Shown: one piece after another, positions 36,242 to 62,843 of the stretch
Position numbering within the stretch: position 1 is the stretch's first letter
Layout: each line of letters begins with the position of its first letter
DNA from: Lepraria neglecta
Lineage: Eukaryota > Ascomycota > Lecanoromycetes > Lecanorales > Stereocaulaceae
Assembly: GCA_033220425.1 (NCBI GenBank)
Contig: CM065653.1
Span: 4,424,440 to 4,488,439 of the forward strand
DNA length: 64,000 nt
Reading direction: 5' to 3'
Program-made: the position numbers and the translations under genes
The notes under the pieces: model-generated
Told to the model about the DNA's origin: nothing
Databases searched by the model: none
The model's input: the letters and a program-made list of their open reading frames with translations, nothing else

Positions 36242-39193
36242 CGCCCTATACTGCGCGCGGGCAGTCTAGTCCAGGAGCTGCTGTTTCTCGCCGATCCCGG
36301 CCGGCTCCCCCGGATCCCATAGGCGTCGTTGCGGGACAACCCTGTCAACGGGGAGCGGGGGTGGAATTTTGTGCGGGACGAGCGCAATATATGGCCGGTA
36401 GACGGCCGAGTATGGTTAAGGGATCGCGTCGGGAAAGACGACGCCCTACAGCGAAGATTCATCGAAGACGGCCAGGTCTTGAAGTAGAAGAAGGCGGGGA
36501 TCCGCGCGTATATGGATCAGGTGGTAGCATATCGAGAGCGGTCCTTACCGTTACTGCATATGACCGGCGGATACGCCGCCCGGGCCCCCGAGATATTGAG
36601 TATCCGGTATAAGAATAGTATTAAAGGCGAACACCGCAACGTATTCATCGAAGATGGAATGGTGGTATTAGTAACCCGATATTATAAAGGGTATCACGCG
36701 CACGGGAACGAGAAGGTCATCCACCGCTATTTGCCCCGACCGGTTAGGGAATTGTTCGTATATTACGAGTGGCTGGTCCGCCCCTTCCAGGAGGTCATCG
36801 AGGCTGAGGGGTGGGATCAATATACTACGTCGCCCTTCCTATAGCCGGCGGACGCTGACGGGAAGGGATGGACCGCCAGTCGGATAACGAAATGTATACA
36901 GAACGCCAGCGAGAGCGGGATAGGGGTAAAGGTCGGGGTCCAGGCATAGCGGGATTTGTCTATTGGAATCAGCCGGAAGTTCTTGCGGAGCGAGCATGTC
37001 TTCCGGCGGGACGAGGATGACGAAGATGGAGATTTCCACGAAGACCCGGCCAGTGCGATCCAGGACGAACAGGCGGGCCATACGTCCCATGTGGCGGGGA
37101 TGGTATACGCGCGGGGGATTACGGAGTTGAGTGGGGTCGTAGCCAGCAGGCGGCAGCGGTTTCGCGCGGCGAGCATGGAGTGGCACCAGTTTTTAGGGTT
37201 CAGTCAGGATGATACAGCGGCGGCGGCGGCGGCGGCGCCGGGCGGTGGGCAAAAGCGGCCAGCGCCCTTTGGTAACGAAGCTGAGGACGCCTCGTTCCAG
37301 CGGTGGAAGCGGATCAGAGGGACAGATATCCATACCGAACTACGGCGTATGATGGGGTCTACCGCCACGTTTCGAGGGGTACAGGAAGCCGCCATCAGGG
37401 CCATCATGAAGGGGGAGAGTCCTGTGGTTATGGTGATGGGAACGGGTGGGGGGAAAAGTTTGGCGTTCATGTTACCGGCCCGGTGCAGCGCAGGGGGCAC
37501 TAGTATCGTGGTGGTACCGTTAATCGCATTGCGGCAAGATCTGAAAGATCGATGCCGCCGGTTAGGGATCGAATGTATCGAATGGAACGGCCACCGGCCC
37601 CCCCGCCAGGCCCGAATCGTGTTGGTGACGCCGGAAGCGGCGATGGGGGACGGGTTTAGCACGTATATAAATCAACTACGGGCGACGCAGCAGTTGGATC
37701 GCATCGTGATTGACGAATGCCATGTGGTATTGAATAACCGGTGGGATTTCCGGCGGAAATTGCAGCGGATGGGGGAGCTGAATCATGCGGAGGCGCAGAT
37801 AGTGATGTTGACCGCCACATTGCCCCCCGGTACAGAAGCCCAATTATGGGACCGGATGGGATGGAAAGCCGAGACGGTTCGTATATTCCGGGCAGGTACG
37901 GTTCGACAGAATATCAGATATCAAACGGTACGGATCCCGGCAGCGGACAAGAAGACCGGAGGGGATGTACGGGTTATCCAGCAGGTATTTGGTCGACATC
38001 GGCAGGGAAAGATGGTAGTATATTGCACTTCGGTACAGCAAACGCAGGATCTAGCGAACCGACTAGGGTGCGAGGCATATTACCATGACGCCGGTGACAA
38101 GGCCGAGAAGCTGGCGCGGTTTAAAGATGGAAATCGGGTGATCGTAGCCACCAGTGCGTTCGGGATGGGGATCGATATCGAGAACATCCGGGTAGTGGTT
38201 CACGTGGATCGGCCGCGGACCTTATTGGATTACGCACAGGAAAGCGGACGGGCGGGTCGAGACGGGCTGAGTAGCGATGCCGTCATTATCGACGTTGATA
38301 ACGGGCCAGAAGAGGGGGGAGGGGATTCGCCAGAGGAAAGACTGGTCCAGCGATTTATTAAGGGAGACGGGTGCCGGCGGCAGGTACTAGATGAGTATTT
38401 GGATGGACGAATAGATCGTATAGAATACGCAGACGGCGAGGAGAGATGCGATCGATGCCAGGCGGTAGAAGAGGATGGTCATATACAGCGGCGGCGGCGG
38501 CGGAGCAGTATAGCAGACGGGGTACTGGACCCGGGGTCCGGGCCGGGGCTGGCGGAGGAGGCAGATCGGGCGGGGACAGAGATAGGGGTCTTTCGGCAGC
38601 AGCGACAGATGCGGGCCCGGATCAGGCAAGAACAGCGCGAGCGAGTGCAGGCGGAAAGGGCAGACGTTATAGCGTTAAAAGGATATTTAAATACCGTCCG
38701 AGGGCAATGTCCGTTTTGTCGATGGCTGCAGATCGAGCACGAGCCCCATCCGTTGTATCGATGCCGTCTCGGGGATTCTAAGCGGAGCCGGGAGCTGTAC
38801 ACGGCGACGAAGAAGAAGATTCGAGATATACGGGCGATGGAGCGCTTCGGTGGATGTATGGAGTGCTTTATACCGCAAGAGTGGTATAACTAATGGCGAC
38901 AGAAGGAGGAGAAGGCGGAGGATGGGAACGATGGTGGAGGGGGGTACGAGAGGGTGCCCGGACGAAAATGCCAGTATCAAGACGTGGTGCTGGGGGGGTT
39001 CGCGGTAGCCTTGACACAAGATCCGGTATTTGGCGGCAGGTAGGTTGGACGATTAACGAAGGCGGGTCCTGATCAGTTGATGGGAGATGATCTCCTCCGG
39101 TACCTAGGGAGACGAATCGAGTGGGGAGGGTTAGAGACTAACCGGTTACTGCGGGAATACTGGGAGGCGGTGAAGTGCGACAGGGAGGAGTAG
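36242..39193 (+). pseudogene. Tyrosine-recombinase-like / RecQ helicase fusion (unit A)
   Basis: A single frame runs from about 36242 to TAG at 39191-39193, broken by TAG at 36320, 36485, 36842, 36947 and 39041 and TAA at 38891, all explainable as C-to-T/G-to-A changes at Gln/Trp codons. The first 290 residues align with unit C (LRDNP.N...GW.F, then R-x-x-E, YKGY and IHRYLP). Catalytic-type residues of tyrosine recombinases can be placed: Arg at 36581, Lys at 36686, Arg at 36950 (box WR-D, where unit C has WRHT), His at 37079 (QAGHTS) and Tyr at 37106 (MVYARG). A RecQ helicase follows (separate entry), then a Cys-rich tail (C-P-F-C, C-M-E-C, KCQYQDVV). The N-terminal OrsD zinc-finger part is missing. 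Confidence 0.75.
36956..38893 (+). CDS. Intact RecQ-type helicase core within the unit A fusion
   Basis: Longest open frame in the window (645 codons). ATP-dependent 3'-5' DNA helicase of the RecQ type found next to fungal telomeres. Motifs in order: I MGTGGGKSLAF, Ia VVVPLIALRQDL, II VIDECHVV, III LTATLPP, IV VVYCTSVQQTQ, V VATSAFGMGID and VI QESGRAGRDG. All key residues are present. A first zinc-binding cluster follows (RCDRCQ), then an Arg-rich linker and CPFC...C...CMEC. An Ala run (9 GCG/GCC codons) near 37217 separates the recombinase end from the helicase. The first codon here is not a true start; the frame is open only because no stop falls between 36949 and 38891. Whether it is expressed on its own is unknown. 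Confidence 0.85.
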   Translation: MSIGISRKFLRSEHVFRRDEDDEDGDFHEDPASAIQDEQAGHTSHVAGMVYARGITELSGVVASRRQRFRAASMEWHQFLGFSQDDTAAAAAAAPGGGQKRPAPFGNEAEDASFQRWKRIRGTDIHTELRRMMGSTATFRGVQEAAIRAIMKGESPVVMVMGTGGGKSLAFMLPARCSAGGTSIVVVPLIALRQDLKDRCRRLGIECIEWNGHRPPRQARIVLVTPEAAMGDGFSTYINQLRATQQLDRIVIDECHVVLNNRWDFRRKLQRMGELNHAEAQIVMLTATLPPGTEAQLWDRMGWKAETVRIFRAGTVRQNIRYQTVRIPAADKKTGGDVRVIQQVFGRHRQGKMVVYCTSVQQTQDLANRLGCEAYYHDAGDKAEKLARFKDGNRVIVATSAFGMGIDIENIRVVVHVDRPRTLLDYAQESGRAGRDGLSSDAVIIDVDNGPEEGGGDSPEERLVQRFIKGDGCRRQVLDEYLDGRIDRIEYADGEERCDRCQAVEEDGHIQRRRRRSSIADGVLDPGSGPGLAEEADRAGTEIGVFRQQRQMRARIRQEQRERVQAERADVIALKGYLNTVRGQCPFCRWLQIEHEPHPLYRCRLGDSKRSRELYTATKKKIRDIRAMERFGGCMECFIPQEWYN

Positions 39194-39243
39194 TCTATAC
39201 CGCTTATTTATCGATTCCCGCCTTTCCGCCGCTGCCGCTGTTA

Positions 39244-39830
39244 TCTCGCCAAGGAGTCATCCGTTGTTTAATCCGAGGATAGAATTAAAACAGCCTTGAT
39301 CAGCCGGTGCCAGAGGTGGCCGGTAAACCACTGCCGGGGCTACCCTTTATCTAGGATATCCAGGTAAAGGTCCTCAGCGGATTCTGTACTGGCTATCAAC
39401 TTAGATCCCTCTCTATCTCGCCAAGGAGTGGTCCGTTTTTCAATCCGAGGACAAAATCAGAATCGCCTTAATTAGACAGTGCCAGAGGTGGCCGGTAAAC
39501 CACTGCCGGGGCGACCCTTTATCTAGGATATCCAGGTAAAGGCCCTCAGCGGATTCTATACTGGCTATCGACTTAGATCCCTCTCTATCTCGCCAAGGAG
39601 TGGTCCGTTTTTTAATCCGAGGACGGAATTAGAATAGCCTTAATTAGACGGTGCCAGAGGTGGCCGGCAAACCATTGCCGGGGTTACCCTTTATCTAGGA
39701 CATTAAGGCAAAGGTTCAAAGCAGAATCAGCTAGCTATTAACTTCAATCCTACTTGATTTTTTAAGGAGCTATTTAGTTTTTATCCTGAAAATTAGAAAA
39801 GCCGGAGTTAGGTAGTACTACAGGATTTTT
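39244..39830 (+). repeat. 172-bp tandem satellite, unit A array
   Basis: Three and a half units with TCTCGCCAAGG starts at 39244, 39416 and 39588, followed by a diverged last unit shared by all three arrays (AAAGCAGAATCAGCTAGCTA). Each unit has a hairpin CCGGYAA...TTGCCGG (or wobble variant) and a near-palindrome around GGATATCC. It begins 50 bp after the fusion gene's stop. Confidence 0.9.
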
Positions 39831-39977
39831 GTATAATATATACCCGCCCCGCGGTTACCTCGATATAAGCTTCTTTTCAAATCTATTCTCTTCTTCTTAA
39901 TACTCTCCGGTCTATACTCTTCTTACGAAACCCTTTAAGCCCTTTCTATATTAGTAAATCAGTTTCTTTAACCCTCT

Positions 39978-40948
39978 ATAGCTCTACCGCTACCTACTAC
40001 CTAGACCGCGGCGACTGGCGCTGATATAGTCGGCACCTGGTTGAGCGACCTGAGATTAAGCGGCGCCCCTCAGTATAGCCCTACTCCAGGCCTAGCTGGA
40101 CCGCCGGCTATCTGGCCGCAGGTAGCTTCATACACCAGCGAGGCTCAGAGGCAGAGGTAAGATAGATATTGCTTGCTTATATCCTTACTTGCTTGCTAGC
40201 TTGCCTGTATACTTGCTTACTTACCTGCTTGCCTGCTTGCTTGCCTACTTGCTTACCTGCTTGCTTACTTACCTATACACTTACCTACTTACTTGCTTAC
40301 CTGCTTACTTACTTACTTACTTACCTACTTACTTACCTCCTTACTTACTTTCTTCCTTCCCCCTCCCTATTTTCTAAGGGCTAATCGTTTATTGACTCTA
40401 TCTAGCTACCTGAATTCGGTCGTTGATATATCGGAACGGGCGAGCTATAAGGCTTGTAGCACATTGAATCCTACGGCGCGCGCTATAACCGCCCACAGCG
40501 CGGCGCTGGTATGCAGCAACCTGAATAGCGCCAGCCAAGACAACGCCGGCCTCGCGCAGTGGCACGCAGTAGGGATAGCCCAGGCTGGGCAGCAGTATTA
40601 TGTCTACAGCAGCACGTTCGATCCGGCGGATTACCTAGCCTCGTCTCCCCCCCGCGGCTCTCCAGCCAGCCTGGCTGTATTAATACCGAGTATATTATCC
40701 GGTTAATACGGACCCCCCAATCGACCACCTATCCGGCTATCAGAGGGGTACAAAGCTATCCGGTCCGGGGCCGTAGACTGACTGTGGCCGAGATATGGAC
40801 TACGGGGAGCGGGAATACGAGGCAGCAATGTATAGGAGAGGGTGCCCGGTTTATTTACGAGGTAGCTAGTGGGCGTGCCGGTATCTCGGCTACAGGGTCG
40901 ATAATACCTAATCTAGCAGGATATAATTGGGTACGGGCGACTTGGTAA
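39978..40948 (+). pseudogene. DIVGTW-family small gene, unit A copy (broken)
   Basis: Homologue of the gene at 49521-50490. Exon 1 is 39978-40156, intron 40157-40405 (TTAC/TTGC repeat, GTAAGA...ATCTAG) and exon 2 40406-40948. The start codon is ATA instead of ATG, codon 9 is TAG instead of Trp, and one base is missing in the C run near 40650 (SSPP region), so the C-terminal third is in another frame. The true end is ATW followed by TAA at 40946-40948. Confidence 0.8.
40157..40405 (+). repeat. TTAC/TTGC microsatellite forming an intron (unit A)
   Basis: About 190 bp of (CTTAC/CTTGC)-type 4-bp repeats between GTAAGATAG and the polypyrimidine tract plus ATCTAG. It can be read as Leu/Thr/Tyr/Ala repeats in all frames, which explains the spurious frames at 40169-40384 and 40189-40377. 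Confidence 0.85.
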
Positions 40949-41161
40949 CGATTAGTATAGAAATAGTAGATAATTAAAGAATAAAAGAATTATAACTTAT
41001 TACTAGAATAATAGATAAGAAAAGGAGGAAATAGTTAAATTTTTTATAAAGAATAATAGACGATTAGAATTAGATATTAGATATTAGATATTAGATATTA
41101 GATATTAGAAATAGGAATAGATAGTCGATAGTAGATATTAGAAATTAGAAATTAGAAATAT

Positions 41162-41192
<31 letters not shown>

Positions 41193-42841: not shown

Positions 42842-45800
42842 CCCCGGGACCCGCCATTACCTCGCCAACAATGCTGGGAAATTAACCACTTCGCAGAATT
42901 CCCCCCCGAAACTTGCGCATCTTTCGCGAGCTTTTTCCAGTCCTATTATTACAGTCGGTCAACTACCTACGCTGATATTACTAGTCGCTATAATAGGTCG
43001 ACCTCTAACCACAGCCGCTGAGAAGAGGATAAAGAACGCTGCCCGGTAATATCGGTAGCGCCAGCAACAAAAGCGGACCTAGTAGCAGGAACGAGCAACT
43101 CGCCTATAGCAGGACGCACTTATCAAGGAACTACAGCAAGCACTCCGCGGTCGCCTACCTCCCCCTTCTCCTCCTTCTTCTTCTTCCCCTCCGACTATAC
43201 CGCAGTAAGTATCGGCTCCGTTACCCCGGCCGTCGGTTCCGATAGAGAGCCAGGGCCCCCCGAGCGAACTCTATAGGGACGAGAACCCGCTACGAACCCC
43301 TCCCGCGAACCGGTAGTCTATTTAATTACCCTGTCCCTACCCTCCCGAGAGCTCGACGAAGAAGAAGGACGACAGCTACTACTTAACGGTATATATCTCG
43401 TATAGGTCCCCGACTCCTAATAGGGAGAAGATCCCTGACGGGCTGGGTTCGAGGGGATCGGAATCCGGTATTAGGCCAACTCTACTACCCTAGATAAGCC
43501 GTTACGCGACCTTTAGCCCGATTTCCCCAGCTATCTAACTTTTACCCTGAGCCGAAAGAGGTAAGACATTACTTAACAGGATTATGCTCGAGGTAACAAC
43601 GTACTTCTCGGGCGCTGATTGGCCTATTATAGTCTAGAGTAGGCAAATCGCCCACCCTATCGGTTTCCCCGCCTTTTTTACAGGTACTAGACGATACCCC
43701 AGCTTTTTCCTTCTTCCCCCCTAACCGCGCGACGTATATTAATGATTTTTTATCTTCTAGGACAGATTTTCTTACCAGCCGCGATTCCTTTACTATAGGC
43801 TATAAAGTAAAGCCCTAAGAGGAATAACAAGCTACTAGACGAGCGACGCAACGTAACTATAACAGGGACAATGCCACTAGACGTACCGGCCCCTCTAATA
43901 TTACCGCCGAACTAGCTCCCTTTAACTAAGGACCGGAATCCCCTCCTAGTCGGCCTCGCCATCTATTACCCCCGAATAGCTCCCTTCTTCGGCAGAATCC
44001 TACCGCTAGCAAGCCTGCCGCCCTCTTTGATCCTACCGCAGAGGATAATAATCACCCCCGTATCAATCGAGTCACCCGTAAACAGCCTGCTGCTTCCTCT
44101 CCTAGATCTAGTCGCTCTTAACCTAAAGCTCCTTCGACCTCCAGCACCGCGAATAACATTCTACTATCTACAGGGACCGATACCTGCTCTTAGTCTATAG
44201 ATCTGTCTAGTAGAAGTAACAGCCTGAATCGGATCATCGAGCAGGACATATCCTATATACCAAATATTAGCCAGGGTCCAGGAGTCAATAATAATAAGAA
44301 TACCCTATATCCTATCCCCTAACTCTAACCGCGTTCCTCTATAAGCGTCTTGTTACTAGCGGCCTCTTTAATATCGAGGGTTACTATAGTCCGTATCCCT
44401 CTTTCAACGTTAACGTTAACTTTAGTTAATATCCCCTCCTATTCGATATTTTCAAGACTAACGGTAGTAACCTATACCTTACTATTAGACGACGACGATA
44501 ACAACAACGACGACGACGACGACGACTACGCGCCTGACTATAATAATCCTCTCGAGTCTCGCTCGGCCGTTTCCGGGCTATCCAATCTAGATAGGTACGA
44601 TAAGTCCGCGGTATCGCTGGAGGATGATCTCTCGGAACTCAGCCTGTCCGACGAAGCTCCTGATCCTATAGCTACCGCGCAGGACTACCTGGACCGCAGC
44701 TGGGCGCCTCTCTGCACGTACAGTAAGACTACTACCTCGACTATATCCTGAATACTTGATTAACTAACTAACTGACTAACTAACTAATCACGTATCTATA
44801 GGGAACGACTATATCGGCAGCAACGGAGCACGCTCGTTAGCCGAATGCACCAACTATCTCAACGAATATCTCCCTAGGACCCCTTTTCCTCTGTAATCCG
44901 GTATATATCTACGTCGCCGAGGTCAGTATAACGATTTCCGAGCGGTAGACTGGCAGGAACTCCTAGGAGGCCGTAGTAATGGCGATATCCCGGAATAGGC
45001 TCTTAGCATCGCTAGGTCCGCAGAGGCCTTCGAACAGGCCGAGCAGAGGACCGACCCTTGGGTCAGGCGCAGTTACGACGTGGATAGCTTTATAGCCAGG
45101 GTCACTATACTAGCAGTCCACCGGAAGGGCTTCAGACTTGCCTACCGCCCGCCTTACCTTAGGACTATCACCTAAGACCCTCACGTCACGTTCCGGTCGA
45201 GACGGATCCATAAGACTAAACACCTCCGCCTCGGGTATGGCGTTAGTAGCGCGGGCTTTAACTACGAATATTATATCTTCTTCCCTCGGATAACTCGCGC
45301 GAAGAAATAGCAGAAGAACTATAGCTACTATCTTAGTAGCAAATCGTAGTAAATCTAGATCGACGATATCATCCTCCCTGCGCTCCGATCGACCTGTGAT
45401 ACCCAAGTCTATACTTGTTATCCCCGTAGCTTCGAAGACGCTAACTACAAGGCCTACGTAAGGCAGGAAGTTTATAATCTGCTACCTAGCCAAGCTATAG
45501 ACGTGTCTTACCCGATCCCCTCCTAAGATCTAGATACCTTTTGGAGAGAGGTGTGCCGTAAAGCCGACGATCGCCCTCTATTCAAGAACCCCTTTCTGAT
45601 CGTCCAGGGCTATAACCTCAAGATCTATACATCTCGCCTGTCTCCCGCCCAGGCTCGCGAAGATTTCCTTACCTACCTTAAAGACTGTTTCGATTTCCGC
45701 AAGGAATACTTCCTACCCGGAGACTATTAGTTGGACTTTAGGGTAGAAGATACCCCGGTCGGTGATACCTCGCAGGCTATTACCCTTCTGCGCAAACCTA

Positions 45801-48115
45801 GTTACCTGGAGCATTGGGCCGAAGCCTTTTACGACCCCTCCCGACGTACTACTAGTACCAAGGAGGCGAAATACCCTTGGTTCTGGACCCGGGATGCCGG
45901 CTCCATATCTGTCGCGGTCCTGGCTAATAACTACCTCCACCGAAAGTACAGGATCGTATATCCCAAAGTATACAATCTTATCAAACATCTATTCGATACG
46001 CCCCTGAAGAAACACAGGCCTTTCTAGAACCTGTATTTCGAAGCTCTAGGGTTCAGCCAGTCAAATCTCGACCGCTAGTACGAGGCCAATTATAAAGGGT
46101 CATCATCCGCACGTCGGCGGAAATACGAGCAGCTCGTCCGTCAATACAACACGACCAAAATCCGGCTTCAGGCGGCCCTAAAGTCCGCCGAAGACACCAC
46201 TTATCGTCCGCCACAGCCCCAGCGCCGCAACTAAGGAGTAGTACTATCACTACTACCTGACCTCAGCGATTACGCACTCGATAACCCTCCTACGTCGGGT
46301 AACGAGACCTGCTCACCATACGGATCCGACAACGAAGCGCCCGCTCCCGCGCCCAGGCGCGTGCCCCCGGTCGCTCCGGAGCATAAAGCGGCCAACTTCG
46401 GGGCCCGACAGGAATGCCGAATAGACTTGACGCGGTTTCGAAATATGAATTTCGATATAGTCGACGGCGACGGTAACGGCGACGGATCCGCCCTAAGCCC
46501 GATATTAACTAGAGTTAACGATCACCCCCGCCCTCACCGTCGACGTATACCGTATTTCCTATATTAGATCCTGCCTACTACCGAGGTTCTCCAGTTTATC
46601 GCCGCGACTACTAACCACTAGCTCCTGCACCTCGAGGTCATCATAATACGCCTGGAGGGCGGAGTTAGGGACCTTACGCCGATGACGTAGAAGGACGAGC
46701 AAATGCATAGGGTAATAGTTATGGCTATCGTCCGTACCCTGGCGCTCAGCTTTAGAGGCGACGATCCCCGGATGTTCCCGTATCGGCCATTATGGAGGGA
46801 TGACTGGACGATAAGCCGCCTATAACACGATAACCACGAAGACGACGGGACCCCTACGGTACGACTAGGGCTAGGATATCGTCGCTCCGTGGATACGTAC
46901 GGTATAGTCTAGGTCCGGGCCGATCTTATCCGATGGTTACCCCTACCTTACTTCTCCTAATACGCACTTAAGAACCTTGGGCTCTCCCAAGACAATAACG
47001 CCTTTTAGAAGTCCTTCCGCAGACCCCAAATCGCTAATCTCCTGAACAAGGAATATTATTTCTACCGTCGTTGGCGTAAGTATTATAAGATACATATAAC
47101 AGTACGGCGGGCGTACGAGCCGGTGGAACGCTGGGTGAAACGCACACTGGATCTCGCCGCGCAACTCGTCGTCAAGGAATATAATCTAGAAGTATTCGAC
47201 ATCCTCGCCAAGCGCTGCTACATCGCGAAAAAGGACTAGAAGGCGGCCGTTCAAAGCCGCAATACAGGACCCTACCCCCTTTAAGACGAGTAGCCCTCAA
47301 AGGCGGAGCAGAAGGAACACTTTCTGGCGCAAATGGACGAGGACTCGCGAAACGGTTTCTGTATACTCACGCCCGGGTTGGTGACCCGGATTACGGGGGC
47401 CAGGCCCCACATCATTCACGCGAAAGCCCCGGGCTCCAACGGCAAAGGAGCCGTCTTCGCTCCCTACCACAGGTCAGGACTGTAGGAGGATCGGGTCCGC
47501 GCACTCTTCGGGTTCGACGAGCCGGAGTTAGAGGGTAGGAGGCGCAAATGGGAGCGATACAAATTCCGTACCCTCGTCAAACAACTCTGGACCATTTTCG
47601 ACCAGACCTTTGAACATATCCTGCGTCAACCCGACTGGACGTATTGTCTCGGGCGCCACGCCTCCAAACTGATACTGATCATCCCCCAATACGACGCTGA
47701 CCACCTCTCGTACATCCAAAAGGCGAAGGACGGCAATACCGTAGAGACACGACAGAAAATCAACGGGACACCGATAGTCCAGCGAACCAACTGGCTGTCC
47801 TGCCGTCTCGAGGAGGAGCACTATAAGTTCGTCTATCGGGTAGACCGCGCGGTGAACGACGAACCAACGCAGAAGGCGATCAGGGACATCCTTCGAGACA
47901 GCCCCTTGCAAACCTTGACTAACACCAACAGCCGTACGGCCAAATATCCTCGCGGCGTATTCCACAACCTGGACCTGGACGGTTTGGACGACACCTTTTA
48001 TAAGGCGGAGATACACCATATACTGGCTGAGGAAGATAGTAGGGAGGACGCTGGAGAGGTAGAATCGGAACCCGAAGAGGGAATACGGGACGATTCGTCA
48101 TCGTCAGACGAGTAG
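42842..48115 (+). pseudogene. Large unrecognised unit B gene (about 1600 residues, multi-exon)
   Basis: Strong coding signal in successive frames: 42842-43040, about 43045-43320 (Gln-rich coil, then Pro/Ser-rich), 43323-43560, 43638-44722 (ends with an Asp-rich patch and a Ser/Glu-rich acidic region) and 44802-48115. Two introns fit: 43561-43637 (GTAAGA...CTAG, tentative) and 44723-44801 (GTAAGA...CTATAG). The last exon is one frame of about 1100 codons with at least fifteen in-frame TAG/TAA codons. Readable blocks include SYLEHWAEAFYDPSRR, KYPWFWTRDAGSIS, AKAPGSNGKGAVFAPYHR and FDQTFEHILRQPDW; the end is acidic (DDSSSSDE). I recognise no known family or catalytic motif. Its position between satellite arrays suggests it belongs to the same element system. 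Confidence 0.65.
44723..44801 (+). other. Intron of the unit B gene
   Basis: 79 nt, donor GTAAGA, acceptor CTATAG, with several overlapping CTAAC branch-point words (44761-44788). Its length (79, one more than a multiple of 3) exactly moves the upstream frame into the downstream frame, giving TCTY joined to RNDYIGSNG. This is good evidence that the two open stretches are one gene. Confidence 0.7.
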
Positions 48116-48149
48116 ATACGGTAGAATCAGAGGGTTCAGAGGTCGCGCC

Positions 48150-48196
48150 TCTGTATATATATGTGTATATATATATATGCGCGCGCGCGCATGACG
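48150..48196. other. Alternating purine-pyrimidine tract
   Basis: TATATATATGTGTATATATATATATGCGCGCGCGCGCATG-type run just downstream of the unit B gene; capable of cruciform or Z-DNA. The rest of 48116-48330 shows no gene. Comparable CG-alternating runs sit in the 5' leaders at 34470-34520 and 59480-59530. Confidence 0.6.
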
Positions 48197-48330
48197 CCCG
48201 AAGTAGTCTATATTAACTAAAGTTAACGTTACTCGCTCGCCGTACCCTTTGAAGCCTATCTCGGTGCCGGTCGATATAGATATCTGGTATTTATTCGCAA
48301 GGGCCCAACACGTCCATATTAAACCCTAAG

Positions 48331-49330
48331 CCGGTACTAGAGGTGGCCGGCAAACCATTGCCGGGGTCACCCTTTATCTAGGATATATAGGCAAAGGTCC
48401 TCGGCGGATTTAGAACTGGCTATCGACTTAGATCCCTCTCTATCTCGCCAAGGAGTGGTCCATTTTTCAATCCGAGGACGGAATCAGAATAGCCTCAATC
48501 AGCCGGTACTAGAGGTAGCCGGCAAACCATTGCCGGGGTCACCCTTTATCTAGGATATATAGGCAAAGGTCCTCGGCGGATGCTGCACTGGCTATCAACT
48601 TAGATCCCTCTCTATCTCGCCAAGGAGTGGTCCATTTTTCAATCCGAGGACGGAATCAGAATGGCCTCGATTGGACAGTGCCAGAGGTGGCCGGTAAACT
48701 ACTGCCGGGGTGACCCTTTATCTAGGATATCCAGGTAAAGGTCCTCAGCGGATTCTCTACTGGCTATCGACTTAGATCCCTCTCTGTCTCGCCAAGGAGT
48801 AGTCCGTTTTTCAATCCGAGGACAAAATCAGAATCGCCTTAATTAGACGGTGCCAGAGGTAGCCGGTAAACTACTGCCGGGGCGACCCTTTATCTAGGAC
48901 ATCCAGGTAAAGGTCCTCAGCGGATTCTGCACTGGCTATCGACTTAGATCCCTCTCTATCTCGCCAAGGAGTGGTCCGTTTTTTAATCCGAGGACGGAAT
49001 TAGAATCACCTCAATTAGACGGTGCCAGAGGTGGCCGGCAAACTACTGCCGGGGTGACCCTTTATCTAGGACATCCAGGTAAAGGTCCTCAGCGGATTCT
49101 CTACTGGCTATCAACTTAGATCCCTCTCTATCTCGCCAAGGAGTGGTCCGTTTTTCAATCCGAGGACGGAATTAGAATCACCTCAATAAGACGGTACCAG
49201 AGGTAGCCGGCAAACCATTGCCGGGGTCACCCTTTATCTAGGATATCAAGGCAAAGGTTCAAAGCAGAATCAGCTAGCTATCCACTTCAATCCTACTTGA
49301 TTTATTAAGGAGCTATTTAGTTTTTATCCT
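48331..49330 (+). repeat. 172-bp tandem satellite, unit B array
   Basis: Five full units (starts at 48443, 48615, 48787, 48959 and 49131, all exactly 172 bp apart) after a partial first unit that begins at 48331 within the monomer, and ending in the shared diverged last unit. The partial start marks the right junction of unit B. Confidence 0.92.
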
Positions 49331-53245: not shown

Positions 53246-53293
53246 CTAGCCCCCTCCTCCAGATTTCTCGTCCCGAGAAACTATCTATCCTTC

Positions 53294-53821
53294 ATGCCTC
53301 CTCGTCGAAACCTCCGTTCTAAAGATCCTATTATTTATTGCAAAGAACTCTCTGGTGAATTATCCAGATTCGTGATGCGTCCTTATACTCTCTGTACGAA
53401 GGGTAATAGGTAATGCTTGGTGGGTGTCCGTTTAGATCGTTGTTCTAACTATGTTACTGCAGGCAAGAAGTGTGACCTAGTTATATCCGTCGACGAGATA
53501 CGCCGTATTAAGAAAGTATGCGATAATACTTAGTCGGAAATAAAAGAAACGCAGGCGAAACTTATACGCCTTTAATTGCAATTCGATCAAGTTCAGGATA
53601 AAGAGAGAAAGTTAGTTAAGCGCGAGTTACAGAATATTGAGGAGTTAGAGAAGGACAAGAATCTTCCTTCTGATACTCCTGACGGTTTGATGTTTAACGT
53701 CGGCTCCGAGCAGTTCGACCTCCCCCCCGGCCTAGAGGGCCCCGAGAGTTTCGACTGGTCTTCTCTTGTCTCCGATGAAACTCTTGCAGGCGTTCCCCGT
53801 AACTCCCCGCAAGGTTCCTAA
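53294..53821 (+). pseudogene. Antisense coiled-coil gene of R4 (reference copy)
   Basis: About 175 codons in one frame, ATG at 53294, TAA at 53819-53821. Three nonsense codons (53411, near 53530 and near 53573) all fit Gln or Trp codons hit by C-to-T/G-to-A change. The N-terminal half has a four-Cys pattern C-x6-C-x8-C-x9-C (TLCTKGN...KKCDLVI), possibly zinc-binding. The middle is a charged coiled coil (DKERKLVKRELQNIEELEKD). The end is acidic and Pro-rich (FDLPPGLEGPESFDWSSL) and finishes SPQGS. The gene runs against gag-pol, and its stop lies inside the chromodomain WEPLRNL codons, so the two genes overlap tail to tail. Present in all five other Gypsy copies here. Role unknown. Confidence 0.75.
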
Positions 53822-56800
53822 GAGGTTCCTAGGTACTTTCCGTTTCGTTATACCCTTTCTATTTAACTAGATAGAACTGATTTCTTCTGTCTAGGATCCT
53901 CTCGACCTTATACTCTATTTCTTCCTTAACGTTATAATGAAACGTTTCTTAGAGTAGTATATTAGAGTCTGCTGGCTCCAGAAGTGAGATATAGAATACC
54001 GGATATACCTTAGCGTCAGGTAGAAGCTCGAGTTTATAGTTAATAGCCCCCTTTACCTTCTTGATCAAGAATGGTCCGACCTTAATATAATCTAGTTTCT
54101 TACTTAGTCTCGTCGTCTTTATATTTTTTGTTAAGAGGTATACTTTATCCCCCTCTTTAAGCTGAGGAACATTCTTTCTTTTATCGTTGACTTATTCCCT
54201 TACTTTATTATTTAAGCTCTCGATTGTCTTTTGTATATCCTTATATAAATTCTTCAGCTCTTCCGCCTTTACTAAGGCTCTTTCTGTATTAGGTCCGTCC
54301 CTAGGTTACAGAAATGTATTCGTATTCTTTCTATAGTTGGCAAAGAATAGTATTAGACCTGTCGTGTCTGATCTCTTATCGTTATATACTAGTTATACTA
54401 TTAGAAGTAGTGAAACCTAGTCATCCTGTTTTAGGTTTACGTAGTGCCTTAAGTATACTTCCATTATTTGGTTTGCACGTTCCGTCTATCCATCAGTCTA
54501 TGGATGGTACGCCGTTGACATCCGAAGTTTAGTTCCAATTGCTGCGATCAGCGTTTTCCAATAGTTAGAAGTGAATAACTTGTCTCTATCGGATGTTATT
54601 GACTTGGGTATATTATAATCTCTTATCAGCTTGTCAAGTAGAACAAAAGCTAATTGGTCTACTTTGTATGTTTCCTTGAACGGTATCATGATTGTATACT
54701 TTGTTAGTTTGTCCATGATAACTATAATTGAATCGAAGGTGTCCTGCGTAGCCGGATCCTTTGAAGGTAGTAGTTTAACTATAAAGTCTATTGTGATATC
54801 ATCCTATGGTGACTCTGGTACAGGCGCAAATTGAATTTGCCCGTACTTGGTATATCGTGCAGACTTGTTCTACTAGCATTGAATATATTCCTTAATATAT
54901 TGTTCAACGCGTGCCCGAAGTTTCGGTGCTGCGTATCCTCGTCCTAGGAGTTCTATTATCTTGGATACTCCAGGGTGACCTTGCAAAGGGTTATCGTAGT
55001 AATCCCTGATCACTTCTTCAATGTATGCGTCAGGTAAGTAAGTTTTTTCCTGATATTTGAGCAATACTGAATCTGGTTGATCCTGTCGTAGCTTTATTGC
55101 GATTACATCGTTGTTGTAGGCCTTTACGATCTTGTCAGTCGTATCAGGTCCTAATATACGAAGGGTCATTGCTAATGCCTGATATGGCACCAATAATCTA
55201 TCGGCTTCTTGTTTTAGGATTGGTCATTCCGTGACGTTCTTTTCTTCTATATAGTCCGACCGCCTGCTAAGCGTATCTACTCGACTATTATCTTTTCCTG
55301 GGGTGTAAGTTATCTTGAACTTATATTGTCCGAGTAGTTCTAACTATCTGACTTATCTTCTATTTAACTCTTTCGTTATTGTAAAGTTAAGAAGATTCTT
55401 GTGATCCGTAAAGATAGTTAAATCTAAGCAGCTTTCTGTGTACACTCTCTAATTTTAAAGTGTATATACTACGGTAAGTAGTTCTTTATCGTGTATATTA
55501 TAGTTCTGTTCTACTACTGACATTTTCCGTGAAAAGTAGGTAACTGGATACTACTTTTAGTCCTTTATTTGACAAAGGTATACTCCTATTACAAGATCCG
55601 AGGTATCTATTTCGATACAAGCCGGTTCGTTAGCTTGAAAGGTACAGAGCACTAGTAGATCCGTATATGCTTTTTTTAACGTGTTAAACGACTTCTATTG
55701 TTCTTATCCCTATATGAATCCAATATCTTTCTTTATAATATCCGTGAGTAGAAGTGCTTTCTTTGAGTAGCCTTTAATAAACTTCCTGTTAAAGTTAGCA
55801 AATCCTAAGAAACTTTGTACTGCTTTGACATCCTGTGGTATAGGCTATTCCGCTATAGCTTTGATCTTTTCTGGGCTTATACTAATACCTTTTGTGCTGA
55901 CTATAAATCCTAGGAACTCGATAGAGTCCCTGTAAAATTCGCACTTTTCTATTTTAAGGAGAAGTCCCGCTTACGACAGGCATTCGATAACGTCCTGTAT
56001 ATACTTAATATATTCTTCCTTTTTCTCAGAGTAAATCAAGATATCGTCGAGGTACGCTATCGCTATTCGATCTAAGTATGCTCATATAACGTTATTAATA
56101 AGTGCTTGGCAGGTTACTGGTATGTTAGTGAGTCCAAACGGTATTACTAGATATTCATAGTGGCTATATCTGGTCCGAAAGGCAGTTTTCCATTCTTCGC
56201 CTTCTTTTATCCGAATCAGGTTATATATACCCCTGAGGTCTAGTTTTATAAATATCTTTGCCTTGCTAAGCCGATCCTGTAGCTCGCTGATATTTAGCAA
56301 AGGATACCTGTTCTTAATTATAATATTGTTCAACTTTCGATAGTTAATATATAGTCTTAAGCTTCTGTCCTTCTTCGGCGCGAAGAGGATTGGATAACCT
56401 ACTAGTAATTTGGATTCCCGAATAAATCCTTTCTTAAGGTTCTTATCGATGTACCCGCGAAGTATAGTAAGTTCCTTTTCTAATAATATATAGATAGGTC
56501 TAAATATCGGCGCCTTGCCAGGTTCGAGTTCGATCTTATAATCCTATAGCTGGTACTTAGGCAACGCTTTTACACTCGTCTCTTCCTTAAATAGGTATAC
56601 CTACCGTTTATATTCCCGAGGGATTACAGAAGGTTCGTCTTTTCCTTTAATAGCTCTCTCTTTTATATCCCGCTAACCTTTACCAGTAACTAAGGAGTCG
56701 AGCCTTCTCTCTTAGAAGTCACTCTTATTATTTAAGAATAAAGTAATATATACTTTGACTGGTCTTCGGTTCTTTCTCTTATCTATTATCGTCTACTATT

Positions 56801-58963
56801 AACTAATAGGTCTAATACTAGTAACATTTCCAGATCATCCGAATTTAAGTACTTTTATCTTCTAGTTGATTTCTAGGTTATGTTTATTTAACCAAGGTAT
56901 TCCTAAAATAATATTATAAGTAGCTATCCCAACTATATCGAATGTAATCTCCTTGTAGTATTACTGAATTATTACAGGTAGGGAGTGTATCTCCTCCTCT
57001 ACTTTTCCTGTTAAAAATACTAACCCATCAGCCAGGCGTAGCTTATACGATAATTTCTTCTTCCGGACTAGTAGGCCGCTCGAGTCTACTAAGTTCCTTA
57101 AGATGAAATTTCCTATAGCTCCGCTGTCTATTATCGCCACAGTCCGCTATCCGCTAATATTCACTGGTATAATAATATAAGTATGGTATTAGGCGGAATA
57201 TAATTGTTGTTTAGGGAATAACGTATTAATCTCCTTATGCTTCCCCGTAGTATAAGAGATTACTCTTTTCCCTGTAATGGTAGGAATCTGTGTACTTCCT
57301 TTATTCCCTTATACGGAATATATTTGTTATATAGGCAGCTATACTATAGTACTTGGTTATAAGCTCCTCTCTTAAAGACTTTGAGTAAGTTATTCCTTTC
57401 CTTTTCCTACTTTTCTATAAAGTATAGGAAGTAGTAATACTTCCTTTTGCTCGTAAGATACTATTGGTACCTATCTTCCTTATACTTATACTACTATATT
57501 TCTCTATAGTAAGCTTTCTTAAGTAAAGGTACCGTGCGCTCTTTCGCTAGATAGCCCCTTTCTTCCCTATGTATTAAATAATCGGGCAATATATATTCAG
57601 TATATAGAATTTCGCTATATTACTAATGTTCCCTATTATATTGATAGTCTCGTATAGGTTCGTCCCATTTGGGTTTTATAGATAGTTACTTATTTAGTAT
57701 ACCTCGTACTTTGCTTTCGATCTTGTCGAAGAGTTTATATTTATCTTCGTCCGATTAAGGTTCTCTAACTTCTTATAATTTTCCTTCTGCCTGGGATATA
57801 GTAGATCCAGGTTCGGGTATCGATACTGGTCTCTCTAGACTAGTTTTCCGTTGTTCCTGATCTGTCTTATATTATTAAGATCTATTACTATCCCTATAGT
57901 AATACCTCTATACTTCCTTATTGAATTCTGATTCGAAGGTATCGTCTTCCGAATCCTGATTTAATTCTTCTGTGTCGTAGAGTAGCTATATCCTTTCGGA
58001 GTTTTCCTCGTTATCTAGAGGTCCTCCTTCTATTACGTTAATCTACGGTCGGTATACCATATTCTTCGACCTGTAGTCTCTAGCTATATAACCTAGTTTA
58101 CTATAGCTATAGCAAGTAATTACTTTCTTTCCCCCGTGCTGCTTTTTCCCTTTAAAGTTTCCTTTCTTCTTTCCTGTCTAGATAAAGTTAATCTCTATTA
58201 GCACTATACTATAATAAGTATTATATTCCCTGTAGTCTTATCGGTAATTCCTTGTTTTCGAAAAGAATCCTTTATATCGGGTTCCGCTGACTCCTCCGTT
58301 ATACCATTTCTCTATAGATTATTTGAATAGCTTATTATCAATCTCGATCGTATTTTCTATAAATCTGTCCAGAGTGTCGATTACTCCTCCGAATCTTATA
58401 AGCTCGTCTTTAACATTATCTTTAAGGCCCTGATAATATATCGTTATCAGCGTATTATTATCCTAGCCTATTTTAGTAGCGTATATTTGAAACTAAGTTA
58501 AAAACTCTAACGCTGACTTCTTCTGCTTTATATACTAGATGATGCGTATTACTACGTTTGCCTTGTTAGAAGGTCCGAACATACGGCGGATTTCAACTAT
58601 AAACTTTGGCATACTTTCTATCTATAACTTAACGTCGCCGTCTTCGTCGTCGTCTTCTATATACTTCTTTAGGAAAGGTTCGACCCACTTTTGGGCCCGT
58701 CCTCGTAGGTACGATATAGCGAAGGTAGTGTGTCTGGTTACTAGGAGCAAGTCTCCCTGGAACAGTAGGTATAGTTATACTTGCGTGAGCTATGGCTCAA
58801 GCTTATCCCTGTCTCCGTAGTATAGGTCTGGTACTGTAACCTTGATCCTTTTTCTAGATCCTTCGTCTATGGTATAGCGTCTCTAGCCAGTAACCGTTAA
58901 GGTACTTGGGGTAGGGTTTCTGCCTGAAGTTGTTGAAGAACTCATCCCTTAGGGTGTTCAAAG
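53694..58963 (-). pseudogene. R4 gag-pol polyprotein
   Basis: Minus strand. From 58963 down: gag (NTLRDEFFNNFRQKPYPK-like start), CCHC zinc knuckle near 58.1 kb (CYSYSKLGYIARDCRS), protease near 57.1 kb, RT with [20 protein letters not shown] and [15 protein letters not shown] (56082-56333 open), RNase H near 55.5 kb, integrase zinc-binding domain (54873-55193 open; YYDNPLQGHPGVSKIIELL) and DDE core (54498-54716 open; SITSDRDKLFTSNYWKTL), and chromodomain near 53.85-53.95 kb. Stops remain between the open blocks, so no full protein can be made, but single domains are intact. Confidence 0.88.
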
Positions 58964-59261
58964 TGTTACGACCTACGTCTGGTCATTTACCTAATGGTGC
59001 GATAACCGACGTAGGGGGTTGCCTTATGCTTCTGTGGGAGAGGAGTCACTCAGGTAGAATGGCAGTCTTTGTGGTTGAAGGTAGTCAATGTATTCTATGT
59101 TGATAACTAGTAAAGTATAGTGCAATGAGTACCAGGAAGATTAACCAAGTTGAACACGCTGTTCCAAACAGTGGGCAAAGCCCTGTATATGTAGATATAA
59201 GAAATCCTGCCAAGTAATCCATGAGCGTTATGAGCGCACGGCGCTCATTGCGCTTATTATT

Positions 59262-59560
59262 CTCTAAAGTCTTGGGCAATTCCCGTCTACCCTCACCGGA
59301 ATTAGGGTTCCCCCGAACCCTAATCCCGGTGAACCCCTCCCTGCTAATAATCAATCCCGGTCAACCCCTCCCTACCAATAATCAATCCCGGTGAACCTCT
59401 GCCCGCCAATCATCAATCCCGGTGAACCTCTGCCCGCTAATCATCAATTCCGTTGAACCTCGACTCTTAATATCTCTGCGCGCGCGCGCATACCTCCGCG
59501 CACGCGTGCGCGATATGTACGCGTACGCGGACGCGGGGTCTGTTTTGATGGTCGCGTCTA
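59262..59560 (+). repeat. Unit C 5' leader: boundary, telomere-motif hairpin, 31-bp repeats
   Basis: Starts with the same 18 bp as 34114 (CTCTAAAGTCTTGGGCAA). A hairpin with 15-bp arms follows (59296-59310 and 59315-59329, one mismatch) containing TTAGGG/CCCTAA. Five 31-bp units start at 59322, 59353, 59384, 59415 and 59446 with the core AATCCCGGTGAACC, related to the 41-bp units of unit A. Then comes a CG-alternating tract (59478-59530) with the palindrome CGCGCACGCGTGCGCG. Confidence 0.75.
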
Positions 59561-59623
59561 TCGGCTATCTTTTAACTATTAAATAAAGAGATACTATCAG
59601 GGGGAGGGTCTACCTGATATACG

Positions 59624-62600
59624 ATGCCTGATGGAGCCGTCGAATGTTTTGAATACTATGCCCCATTTCGTGTTATCATTTGCACGCGCTGTCAAGGCGG
59701 TGTTCCTAACCCCGGGCTAAAGGCCCACCTAAGGCGCTTCCATCCCGACCTTCTGTCGAGCCGCCGTCAGGCCGTCCTACAGTATTTTATCGATAAGGTC
59801 TCTCTAGCGCGGCGAGAGGACCTTCTATCCCTCCTCCTACGCTGCCTCGATATCCCTATCCCCTATATTCCTCTCTTCGAGGACGGACTGCGATGTCGCC
59901 AGTGCGATTCAACTACCCCCCGCCCCTTCATCGGCCGATCCGAGCGGACCCTTATAGATCACTACCAGAGCGCCCACGGGGGTTACAGGCAACAAGGACG
60001 GGGCCGGCCGAGCACCGCCAGCGTCAGAAACCGAGGATCGGAGCCGTGGCGCTGCGGTGTTCGATGCCAGCGGCTATTCACCGCAGGTACCGGCAGCTTC
60101 TTCCTAGAAATTATTGAACCTGCTACGACTGCAGTAGCGGCGGCTGCGGCTGCTCACCCTCCAGCTCAGAACCCGCCGGGTATCCCCACGGAGATCGAGA
60201 TAGGTACCGAGACTGTATACACGGCGAGGATCCAGCAGCGCGTACGAACCCAGCTATAGACGATCGCGACGGCGCAGCAGCAGCAGGATCATCTAGGTAT
60301 CCTCGCCCCGGCCGATCGGACCGAGGCGAATCCCTGGCTCCGGATCACGCGGTGGGCCGAATTCCTCAAGGGCTACGAGCTACGGAAGCTCCTGCCTCTG
60401 GTCGACCCCCCGACCGACCGAGACGATCCTGCGCGAATTCAGCCAGAGCCTAGATCGGATCATTGAGGAAGCGCGTACCTCGGTCCTGACGGAACGGATC
60501 AACATCTTCGACCAGACCATGATCAATATGTTTACCGACCACGCAACCAAGGCGGGACGACCGCTAACCACGCAGCTCCGAGAAGGGACGTACCGGGAGT
60601 ACAAGAACGTATGGAAGCGCCTGCTGTGCTTCGTATATCGGTGCTTCTTATATCGGACCGCGGATCCTGAAGTCTGGACCGCTATTGCCGCCGTCGAGGA
60701 TCTTGATACTGATGGTATATCGAGAGACGAGGCCAATCCGACCTTTCCGTTTATCCTGACGCGGAATCAGTATACCGGACTGCGGCGGAGTATCCGCGAG
60801 GCCTATACGCTGGTCGGGCTTCAGGGCCGAGAGGGTGTTACCGTAGAAGCGCTGAATGAGCGCCGTCAGAAGCTGGACCGAGTCCTGGCGCGGCTGTGTA
60901 TGGCGCTGCTGGAGCATATCCTGCCCCAGAGCATCTACCAGTCCACCGTCGTCGGGTTCCTAGCGATCCTCGGGATCGACGAGAAGCAGGTACGGAGCTC
61001 CTCCCTCTCTTCCCTTCTCCTACCAACTAATCTCTACCGTTCCCCCTACCCCCCGGCCCTGCTGATCCAAGCTCGATAGGGTCGTTTCTACGACGCCTGT
61101 AATTATACCCCAACCCTATCCGCCTTTGTTAAAATCACCCAGCTGCTTACTATTCAGGCGAGCGTCTACGCTGAGGAGGCCGGTAAGGTAGAGCACGCCG
61201 CCGATATGCTTCGCGCCTACCGCGCCCGCTGCCTGCTTCGGGACGGCCATACGCCGTTTGGCTGGATTCTCACCTTGCGCTCCCAGGGTAGACGGATTCG
61301 GAACAATACGACGAGCGCCGGCTATATCACGTGGGCGGATGATCGGTCCAGTCTCACCTTTAAAGATATCACTCTGGATATCAAAGCGTTTCGGGGCTTT
61401 CTGCGTCAGCAAACCGAGGCCCTCTGCGCCGAGCTAAGCGAGCTCTACCTACCGCAGCCGTACGAGCAGAGTATCCCACGGTTCGATCTCGGTAAGCTGA
61501 GGGATAACCCCGCTAACGCTCAAACCGGCTGGTCCTTCCTGCAGGAGCCGCAGAACGATCTGGCTCGGTGGCAGGAGTGGCTTATTAATCGCGTGCTGGA
61601 CCAGCGTATACTACGCGAGCAGTTCTTCCAGTCAGAGCGGCGCGTCGCCGGTCAACCACCGAAGGAGCCTCAATGGCAGGTAGCCCGCGTCCGACAGTAT
61701 CTAGAGCTCCTTCGACGGTTTCTGACGCGGCTATCGATGCTAATCTTTATCCTCGGCGGGCAGCCCGCGAGGGGGACGGAGCTATTCAGTCTGCGATACC
61801 GTAACACCTTCCACGGCGGTTATCGAAACATCTATATCGAGCAGGGTCTGCTAGGATTTGTCACCCTGTACCATAAAGGCTACTCCATCGGCGGATCCCT
61901 AAAGATTATCCATCGATATTTACCCCCGGCGCTCAGCCAGGTCGTCGTTCAATACCTTGTCTTGGTTCTACCCTTCTCCCAGCAGCTCAGCCGTCTTGTC
62001 TACGATCAGCCTGAGGATTCGGCGTTCCTCTGGGCCAGGGCGGAGACGACGTGGGACCCGAGCCAGCTGTCCCACTTCCTGCGGCAGGAATCCGCGCGGG
62101 AGCTCCAGGTGCCGCTGACGATCTCGTCCTGGCGCCACACCGCTATCGCTATCTCGCGCGAGTTTATCCCTAAGGGGACGTATTTCGATCGCGAGGCCGA
62201 CAGCGAGACGAGTCAAACCCTTGACCGGCAGGCTTGCCATTCGAACAACACGGCCGGCACGATATACGGGCGTCTAGTCCAGGACGGTGATGGGCAGATC
62301 AGGGAGTTTCGCGAGCGATATCGCCGGGTTAGCCTACTATGGCATACGCTCTGGCTGCAGGAGGCGCCCTCGGAGCCCTTAGAGCCCCCGGTAGAGGAGC
62401 AGCCAGCCGAGGAGCCCGCTTAACTATTACAGGAGGACCGAGGTGAAGATTCAACTATTGAATCGGTAGGACGATCGGATAGCGTACCGCCTGGAGATAA
62501 TTCAAATCTCTCGGCGGAGGGTCCTATAAGAACCGCCGACGGTAGGTCCCACTTCCCAGGTATAGACGGGTCTGAACGTCTCGAGACAAGTCCTGAGCCC

Positions 62601-62843
62601 CGGGGTAGAAAACGACCCGCTCCGACGGATTCTCTCCCCCAGTTACGAGAGCCTGCGATAGAGGCAGCCGATCTCCCTCCGCTAACCGCTATATCAGCGC
62701 CGGCGACGCCGTCTCTACCGATAGACTTACAACAGCAGCAGCTCCTCCAGCAGCATTTACACCAGCAGTCACTCCTATTTCAGCAGCATCAGCAACAGCA
62801 GCTACAGCTCCTTATTCAAATCATGCAGTATAGGAAGAGCTAG
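59624..62843 (+). pseudogene. OrsD zinc-finger / tyrosine-recombinase-like protein (unit C)
   Basis: Begins ATG 59624 (MPDGAVECFEYYAPF). Residues 1-150 are an OrsD-type (DUF3505) region with C-x2-C...H-x4-H fingers (CTRCQ...HLRRFH; CRQCD...HYQSAH) and PWRCGVRCQRLF. The typical WLRITRWAEFL block follows. Defects: TAG at 60257; a 4-base duplication GACC at 60412-60421 that shifts the frame; TAA at 62421. An intron 60990-61079 (GTACGG...GATAG, 90 nt) fits. The recombinase-like domain has Arg 61770 (ARGTE), Lys 61875 (HKGY), Arg-His 62133-62138 (WRHTAIAISR), His 62238 (QACHSN) and Tyr 62265 (TIYGRL), i.e. the R-K-RxxR/H-H-Y set. Past 62421 the frame stays open to a KRPAP motif (also in unit A) and a Gln-rich end. 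No helicase. Confidence 0.78.
61206..62423 (+). CDS. Intact recombinase-like open frame of unit C
   Basis: A 405-codon uninterrupted stretch within the unit C gene, holding the full candidate catalytic set of a tyrosine recombinase (Arg, Lys, Arg-His-Thr, His, Tyr, positions given in the parent entry). The first ATG at 61206 is internal, since the intron ends at 61079 and the exon reads in frame from there. Order and spacing (about 120 residues from first Arg to RHT, then 43 to Tyr) match the catalytic domain of phage-integrase-like enzymes and Crypton-type recombinases. It is the least damaged copy of this domain in the window. Confidence 0.65.
   Translation: MLRAYRARCLLRDGHTPFGWILTLRSQGRRIRNNTTSAGYITWADDRSSLTFKDITLDIKAFRGFLRQQTEALCAELSELYLPQPYEQSIPRFDLGKLRDNPANAQTGWSFLQEPQNDLARWQEWLINRVLDQRILREQFFQSERRVAGQPPKEPQWQVARVRQYLELLRRFLTRLSMLIFILGGQPARGTELFSLRYRNTFHGGYRNIYIEQGLLGFVTLYHKGYSIGGSLKIIHRYLPPALSQVVVQYLVLVLPFSQQLSRLVYDQPEDSAFLWARAETTWDPSQLSHFLRQESARELQVPLTISSWRHTAIAISREFIPKGTYFDREADSETSQTLDRQACHSNNTAGTIYGRLVQDGDGQIREFRERYRRVSLLWHTLWLQEAPSEPLEPPVEEQPAEEPA

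Follow-up and report, generated by a model that had tools for sequence, protein, structure and literature searches.

A probable tyrosine-recombinase-like domain within subtelomeric OrsD-RecQ genes of Lepraria neglecta

In 1998 subtelomeric genes for RecQ-type helicases were described from Ustilago, and reports from other fungi have followed (PMC4522978, PMC10532341, PMC5576322, PMC7473861), and subtelomeric genes with OrsD and/or RecQ helicase regions are known from a wider set of papers (PMC5576322, PMC10532341, PMC11457142, PMC3017866, PMC7473861, PMC4522978, PMC12857005, PMC5883321, PMC8381367). In the telomere-linked helicases (TLHs), such as UTASa/UTASb of Ustilago maydis and the repeats of Colletotrichum higginsianum, OrsD (DUF3505) and a helicase are combined in subtelomeric, multi-copy genes (PMC5576322, PMC10532341). 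The C. higginsianum repeats with helicase and DUF3505 lie at all 24 subtelomeres and share one orientation to the telomere (PMC5576322), and a telomere-associated RecQ repeat of S. nodorum was mutated by repeat-induced point mutation (RIP; PMC3017866). The same features were found in units A and C of the stretch of Lepraria neglecta DNA analysed here (the window), which is the final 64 kb of contig C8 (CM065653.1) in a genome of 42.0 Mb and 11 contigs. These units differ from the published TLHs in that a domain resembling tyrosine recombinases (YRs) lies between OrsD and RecQ and in that a subtype of 13 copies has no helicase of its own; in the available parts of the TLH accounts, and of the other papers cited above on OrsD and RecQ genes at chromosome ends, no recombinase domain is named for these genes. 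A full-text literature search (titles and the beginnings of abstracts) returned no description of a YR in TLHs, most subscription papers being outside its coverage, so that this result is no proof of absence. The gene family is known, as the earlier note on this DNA had stated for fungal telomere-linked RecQ genes; the recombinase-like domain in its middle appears to be new. It is most likely a YR built into a TLH (probability roughly 0.6), and may then serve in recombination or mobility.

The nearest precedent for the A and C proteins is the integrase of endogenous nimaviruses, in which C2H2, SAM-like and YR regions go with insertion into telomere repeats (PMC10871703). The likeness lies in the joined C2H2 zinc-binding and YR regions, the telomere-repeat insertion and the location of five of seven YR key residues; the difference is that those are large crustacean viruses, that a RecQ fusion is not mentioned in the available part of the source, and that the YR sequences can be likened by description only (PMC10871703). 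RecQ has also been mentioned in Academ transposons (PMC3627910). Crypton transposons are likewise eukaryotic YR elements and carry the tetrad R-H-R-Y (PMC3212892), whereas the A/C domain gave no GCR1_C or DUF3504 match (Pfam, E up to 10), lacks the His of the HxxR box, is fused with RecQ and is subtelomeric. With XerC/XerD, lambda Int and Cre it shares the order and spacing R..E, K, xxxR, H (Trp in Cre) and Y nine residues later; it differs from them in the missing HxxR His and the multi-domain eukaryotic context, and the similarity lies below what HMM (hidden Markov model) searches detect. Starship captains (DUF3435), taken here to be fungal YRs, resemble it in that the HxxR His seems to be missing from a captain fragment of this genome as well, and differ in that no DUF3435 match to the A/C domain was obtained although the profile finds 36 places in the genome.

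Gene structure and the shared domain

Unit C (module C, 59618-62423, + strand) starts with an exon 1 region (59618..60989, +) in which OrsD zinc fingers are encoded at 59645-59980 (PF12013, E 1.7e-14, Pfam, in the open reading frame (ORF) 59618-60259). This region carries an in-frame TAG (60257-60259) and a frame change near 60410, past which the reading frame extends to 60989. An intron of 90 bases with GT-AG borders (60990..61079, +) was placed here because the type A ORF on contig C9 reads collinearly across this point. Exon 2 (61080..62423, +) encodes the YR-like domain with R at 61770 (codon 61770-61772), E at 61779, K at 61875 (61875-61877), S at 62124 in the place of the HxxR His, R at 62133 (62133-62135), H at 62238 (62238-62240) and Y at 62265 (62265-62267).

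Unit A (36267..38893, +; module A about 36267-39200) is a 5'-truncated gene with the domain followed by a RecQ core; its 5' part is lost, similarity to the copy on contig C4 beginning at about 36267. The domain (36281..37189, +) is interrupted by four TAG codons and has R at 36581 (codon 36581-36583), E at 36590, K at 36686 (36686-36688), R at 36950 (36950-36952), H at 37079 (37079-37081) and Y at 37106 (37106-37108). From 36950 to 38893 (+) a stop-free ORF of 647 aa joins the domain's second half, from the R352 equivalent to that of Y396 (residues numbered throughout as in L019:3717-5057), to DEAD (37379-37828, E 2e-21) and Helicase_C (37973-38266, E 5.5e-16). No RQC domain was reported for unit A by Pfam, and the RecQ part is a helicase core.

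The other three type A copies carry the OrsD region that window A lacks. On contig C9, an ORF of 788 aa (L030:5042-7405:-) has OrsD at its start and runs through the domain past its Lys, where one TAG precedes the remainder of the domain. The copy on contig C4 has the full order of OrsD (5179323), domain (5180847) and RecQ (5181744), with stop codons. Because of the C9 ORF, the stop-free ORF of the window and the complete order on C4, OrsD, domain and RecQ are concluded to have formed a single gene.

The shared domain comprises about 380 residues. In an alignment of ten rows (six of the 13 type C copies, L019 standing for the C5 end, and all four type A copies) the A rows were 30-34% identical to C; the genome search gave a range of 30-35%, with E 9e-43 for window A. 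In a 75-residue stretch around the R-to-K region the identity between C and A rose to 47%. R231, E234, K266, R352 and Y396 were identical in all ten rows and H387 in seven, with Tyr instead in L009, L014 and L017. The earlier note had read one domain in A and C, preceded by OrsD-type zinc fingers in C and followed by a complete RecQ helicase in A; the first two points were borne out, and the third holds for the helicase core, not for "complete". The order OrsD-recombinase-RecQ, for which it had suggested a survey of fungal genomes, was found at other chromosome ends of this genome. Its series R...K...WRHT...H...Y was recovered as a residue order in both units, but the literal WRHT occurs only in C; the equivalent in A is WRDL, and the W codon of window A itself is TAG. 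Taken together, the units are probably subtelomeric genes of TLH type with N-terminal OrsD zinc fingers (C2H2-like) and a YR domain; type A has in addition a RecQ core at the C-terminus, and type C is without helicase.

A and C are also alike in a stretch directly before their tail arrays (39160..39250, + in A; 62856..62940, + in C), and in A an open frame runs to the end of this stretch. Because of these two points, type C may derive from an A-like ancestor by loss of RecQ.

Comparison with known tyrosine recombinases

Among 35 known YRs the equivalents of XerD R148, R247 and Y279 were invariant, those of E151, K172 and H270 nearly so, and that of H244 invariant or nearly so. These seven positions are the classical YR positions, as in Cre. 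Six of them (R, E, K, R, H, Y) were present in the A/C family in order and spacing, with E three residues after the first R and Y nine after H as in the known YRs. Seven key positions of YRs are also spoken of in the nimavirus work (PMC10871703). By eye, the R-to-K stretch reads as strand, turn, strand, Lys-Gly, strand ('YIEQGLLGFVTLYHKG...LKIIHRYLP') and resembles 'SLRQGVVRVIGKGNKERLVPL' of XerD.

The order R, E, K, R, H/W, Y at canonical spacing was found in the rows and also by a spacing signature, which was matched by 62 of 69 known YRs and by 6 of 10 family rows; the misses in the family were caused by Tyr for His in three rows and by a Tyr after R352 in L008. In 20000 shuffles, C gave 13 matches, window A 27 and L015 32, and the ten matches among 70 other ORFs were four known YRs and six ORFs of the A/C family. 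The pattern was composed after the family had been seen. In a looser form it was matched by 11-19% of shuffles and, among the 70 ORFs, by 14; module B and a second unrelated ORF were among these. In a second test the segments between the anchor residues were scored against known YRs, with the five anchors excluded and E234 retained, and resembled them more than shuffles did. In 3000 shuffles the real score was reached 6 times for C, once for window A, 73 times for the C9 copy of type A and never for a mix of C and A; the anchors had been picked by motif, so that this test is not fully independent. Most of the signal came from the R-to-K segment and less from K-to-R, and the regions before R and after Y contributed little.

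When the family was aligned with the 69 known YRs by hhalign in local mode, R, K, R, H and Y fell unguided on catalytic columns of the template (5 of 6). Among 999 column shuffles of the best run, the five catalytic residues were reached by 2 and the number of aligned columns by 81. The same five of six columns were obtained from the C-type rows alone and from L019 alone; three were obtained from L014 alone, from L017 alone and from a four-row mix, and one from L015 alone.

Several results weigh against a YR. The HxxR His is Ser (S349) in type C or Gln in type A, and the tetrad R-H-R-Y is consequently incomplete. The score of the best hhalign run was matched by 34 of the 999 column shuffles; the type A rows alone aligned one of six catalytic columns and global mode aligned none; with the catalytic region alone (XerD numbering) 173 of 600 shuffles scored as high, and the reversed query scored higher; two other YR templates (six known YRs; a set of 35 sequences) were aligned elsewhere. 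In searches of Pfam, NCBIfam and PHROGs with E up to 10 no recombinase family came up for the domain; it is covered by no family of Pfam or NCBIfam, and the best PHROGs match (E 0.01, one row) was to a family of unknown function. In a sequence search of the PDB no recombinase was returned, the best match (E 0.039) being a translation factor, and a plain HMM of the 69 YRs scored the A/C family at chance. Neither copy in the window is an intact gene, and among the copies examined none reads as one.

The weight of some of these negatives is limited by the methods themselves. Captain fragments compared with the six known YRs likewise failed in hhalign, which shows the method to be weak at such depth, and PF00589 matched nowhere in the genome, neither the A/C family nor the captains, so that its silence says little. 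Searches of viral and of bacterial/archaeal contig collections confirmed no relative, a result that says little about fungi. The missing HxxR His is not decisive, because the captain fragment L059 of the same genome reads YCLRR (box read by eye) and seems to lack this His too.

The fit to YRs claimed in the earlier note is favoured by motif spacing and anchored-segment similarity but qualified by the Ser or Gln in the HxxR box and by the dependence of the profile-profile result on the template. The profile search that it had suggested put five of six catalytic columns in place against the 69-YR template in local mode, and yielded neither a library family nor the same alignment with other templates; the conservation that it had expected of the candidate residues holds within this genome for R, E, K, R and Y in every row and for H in seven of ten. 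A YR fold is likely for the domain on these comparisons, and YR catalysis is fairly probable; with its HxxR His replaced by Ser or Gln, the domain would be said to work like a YR and not yet to be one.

Chromosome-end copies, selection and spread

Modules A, B and C stand head to tail in the window, and all three read toward the contig end. A genome search for the domain gave 17 candidates, all of which were scored, and 17 copies: 13 of type C (87-100% identical to window C) and four of type A. Fifteen of the 17 lie less than 30 kb from a contig end (exceptions C5:97228 and C4:5070200), and 14 are oriented to the nearest contig end; the three that are not, C11:636, C9:7264 and C9:79193, are on two small contigs. 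At the ends of the eight large contigs type C was found in 10 of 16 cases, C5:97228 counted in; on C4, C is followed in the direction of the telomere by A and then B, all inside 27 kb. TTAGGG arrays stand at three contig ends (right ends of C3, C4 and C6), which together with the position of the 15 copies places the family near telomeres, as in TLHs. In 14 of the 17 copies (11 of 13 C, 3 of 4 A) the domain is preceded by OrsD on the same strand, and the presence of OrsD in the same gene, a further TLH feature, is seen in the 788-aa C9 ORF, which runs from OrsD into the domain; the window A copy is truncated. The DEAD and Helicase_C core of RecQ type is confined to type A: RecQ follows the domain in three of four copies, and the fourth retains on site only the first 130 residues of the RecQ ORF. 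None of the type C copies has a RecQ match of its own; where the RecQ query touches them, in five cases, it does so only via the domain end. Sequence common to the C copies extends from about 59261 or 59556 and continues into the tail array. Two of the 16 OrsD matches of the genome (G000:C4:3196733-3197014 and G000:C2:5972702-5973016) have no adjoining recombinase-like domain.

Relative to the majority base, the 12 other C copies show 342 changes of the kind C>T or G>A for which the neighbouring base was scored (changes shared between copies were counted in each copy). CpA is the site of 245 of these, although in the window C copy only 118 of 792 C-dinucleotides on both strands are CpA. Such RIP-type changes, together with the DUF3435 captains, would fit an ascomycete of the Pezizomycotina. 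Because RIP makes only transitions, omega was determined from transversions only. For domain pairs with more than 20 transversions it was 0.25-0.43: window C against C5:97228 gave 0.29 (26 transversions; the sole C pair with enough changes), type A copies against C4:5070200 gave 0.25, 0.29 and 0.29, and C9 against C4:5180847 gave 0.43. One further C pair gave 0.24 from 4 transversions only, and two stretches of RecQ gave 0.30 and 0.34. These values indicate past purifying selection, by which the domain was held about as strongly as RecQ prior to decay by RIP. Window A (36281-38890) and G000:C4:5180847-5183684 differ by no transversions and by 90 transitions (27 in the domain, 63 in RecQ); because of this pattern the pair is regarded as a recent duplication followed by RIP.

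If the domain is an active YR, chromosome-end sequence might be bound by the zinc fingers together with the N-terminal portion of the YR region; the YR would cut one strand via Y396, activated by R231, K266, R352 and H387, and would rejoin it to a different chromosome end by way of a Holliday junction, which the RecQ motor could open or migrate. Whole modules, each a gene with its array of 172-bp tail repeats, would in this way be copied or exchanged between chromosome ends. Since the YR region is retained in thirteen type C copies that have no helicase of their own, persistence of the YR would be independent of RecQ in cis. The target and the role in moving modules can be proposed only tentatively. 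Doubtful, and offered as speculation, is the wider proposal that fungal TLHs are chromosome-end mobile elements, in which zinc-finger targeting, an active YR and RecQ cut, move and homogenise subtelomeric modules, with type C as the minimal OrsD-recombinase form amplified to at least 10 of 16 large-contig ends. The genes might thus encode mobile-element enzymes, as the earlier note had it, or else serve in the maintenance of chromosome ends. Were the enzyme reading true, it could explain the spread of a gene family of chromosome ends, and the function and origin of these genes would become a question for the bench. Elements that are now identified through their helicase might then prove to be recombinase elements, and a natural fusion of recombinase and helicase directed to chromosome ends would be at hand.

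Homologous recombination between chromosome ends would spread the modules as well, and this counts against a role of the domain in their movement. Such recombination would copy the last tens of kb, with the gene, YR or not, as a passenger; it is compatible with a YR fold and is a possible, though not a probable, account. The 172-bp tail arrays point to it. The same tail stands behind A (39242..39715, +), B (48332..49258, +) and C (62928..63574, +), B having no detected kinship with A and C, and stretches 98-100% identical to the window's occur at ten other places near contig ends; the identity of these eleven 344-bp stretches, the window's included, is a sign of recent exchange. The recent copying of window A and its C4 counterpart agrees with passive spread too. 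Also against movement by the domain, no terminal repeats, target-site duplication or empty site were established, the outer ends of the modules being undefined and terminal direct repeats not having been searched for. By itself, passive spread gives no account of purifying selection on the codons of the domain.

That selection also bears on an unlikely alternative, a YR-derived domain that has lost catalysis and serves as a DNA-binding module of a TLH, with RecQ as the working part. The Ser or Gln in the HxxR box would agree with this, and so would the stop-free RecQ ORF of the window beside a YR part with four TAG codons; dead YR domains have a precedent in the Crypton-derived DUF3504 proteins (PMC3212892). 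Those proteins lost, however, the Tyr and the second Arg (PMC3212892), whereas here all ten of the ten rows have the same nucleophilic Tyr, the same two Arg and the same Lys. Loss of catalysis is further opposed by the thirteen C copies that keep the YR region, 11 of them with OrsD upstream, in the absence of a RecQ match of their own, by the omega of 0.29 in the one C pair with enough changes, and by L059, the captain fragment that seems to be without the same His.

An unrelated fold, the series R/E/K/R/H/Y being a coincidence picked by eye, is improbable. It would account for the negative library searches, for the variation of the hhalign outcome with the template, and for the success of a signature written after the family had been seen, the looser form of which was common in shuffles; it is opposed by the shuffle results, both for the strict signature and for the inter-anchor segments, and by the identity of the residues across two types only 30-34% alike. 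Membership in the Crypton or Starship captain (DUF3435) family, suggested by the fungal host, the YR-like residues and a zinc-finger DNA-binding region, is very improbable, no match to PF11917 (DUF3435) or another Pfam recombinase having been obtained at E up to 10 while 36 DUF3435 matches were found elsewhere in the genome.

Tail repeats, module B and other elements

The 172-bp repeat has at least 94 matches in the genome. Of the 94 listed, 90 lie less than 30 kb from a contig end, three lie near C5:96 kb and one lies at C4:5.067 Mb. At about positions 103-130 of the unit a near-palindrome (arms 9-10, spacer 7-9) was present in nine of nine units examined. It was considered as a core site for recombination, but its quality is about that of chance for a single unit, and it is kept as a guess only.

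Module B (about 45700-48115; window 45731-48115, L149:208-2592) represents a third subtelomeric gene family, with 11 matches in the genome and one ORF of 794 aa on contig C4; it gave no Pfam match, and kinship to A or C was not detected. Copies of an AT-rich element in inverted arrangement (5.6 and 5.3 kb, 85-90%) lie in the window at 12186-17775, 20416-26005, 29182-32078 and 53723-58975, and one ORF of the last copy encodes a reverse transcriptase domain (PF00078, E 2.6e-14). The 36 DUF3435 matches of the genome, all away from the A/C copies and many with stop codons, are possible remnants of Starships.

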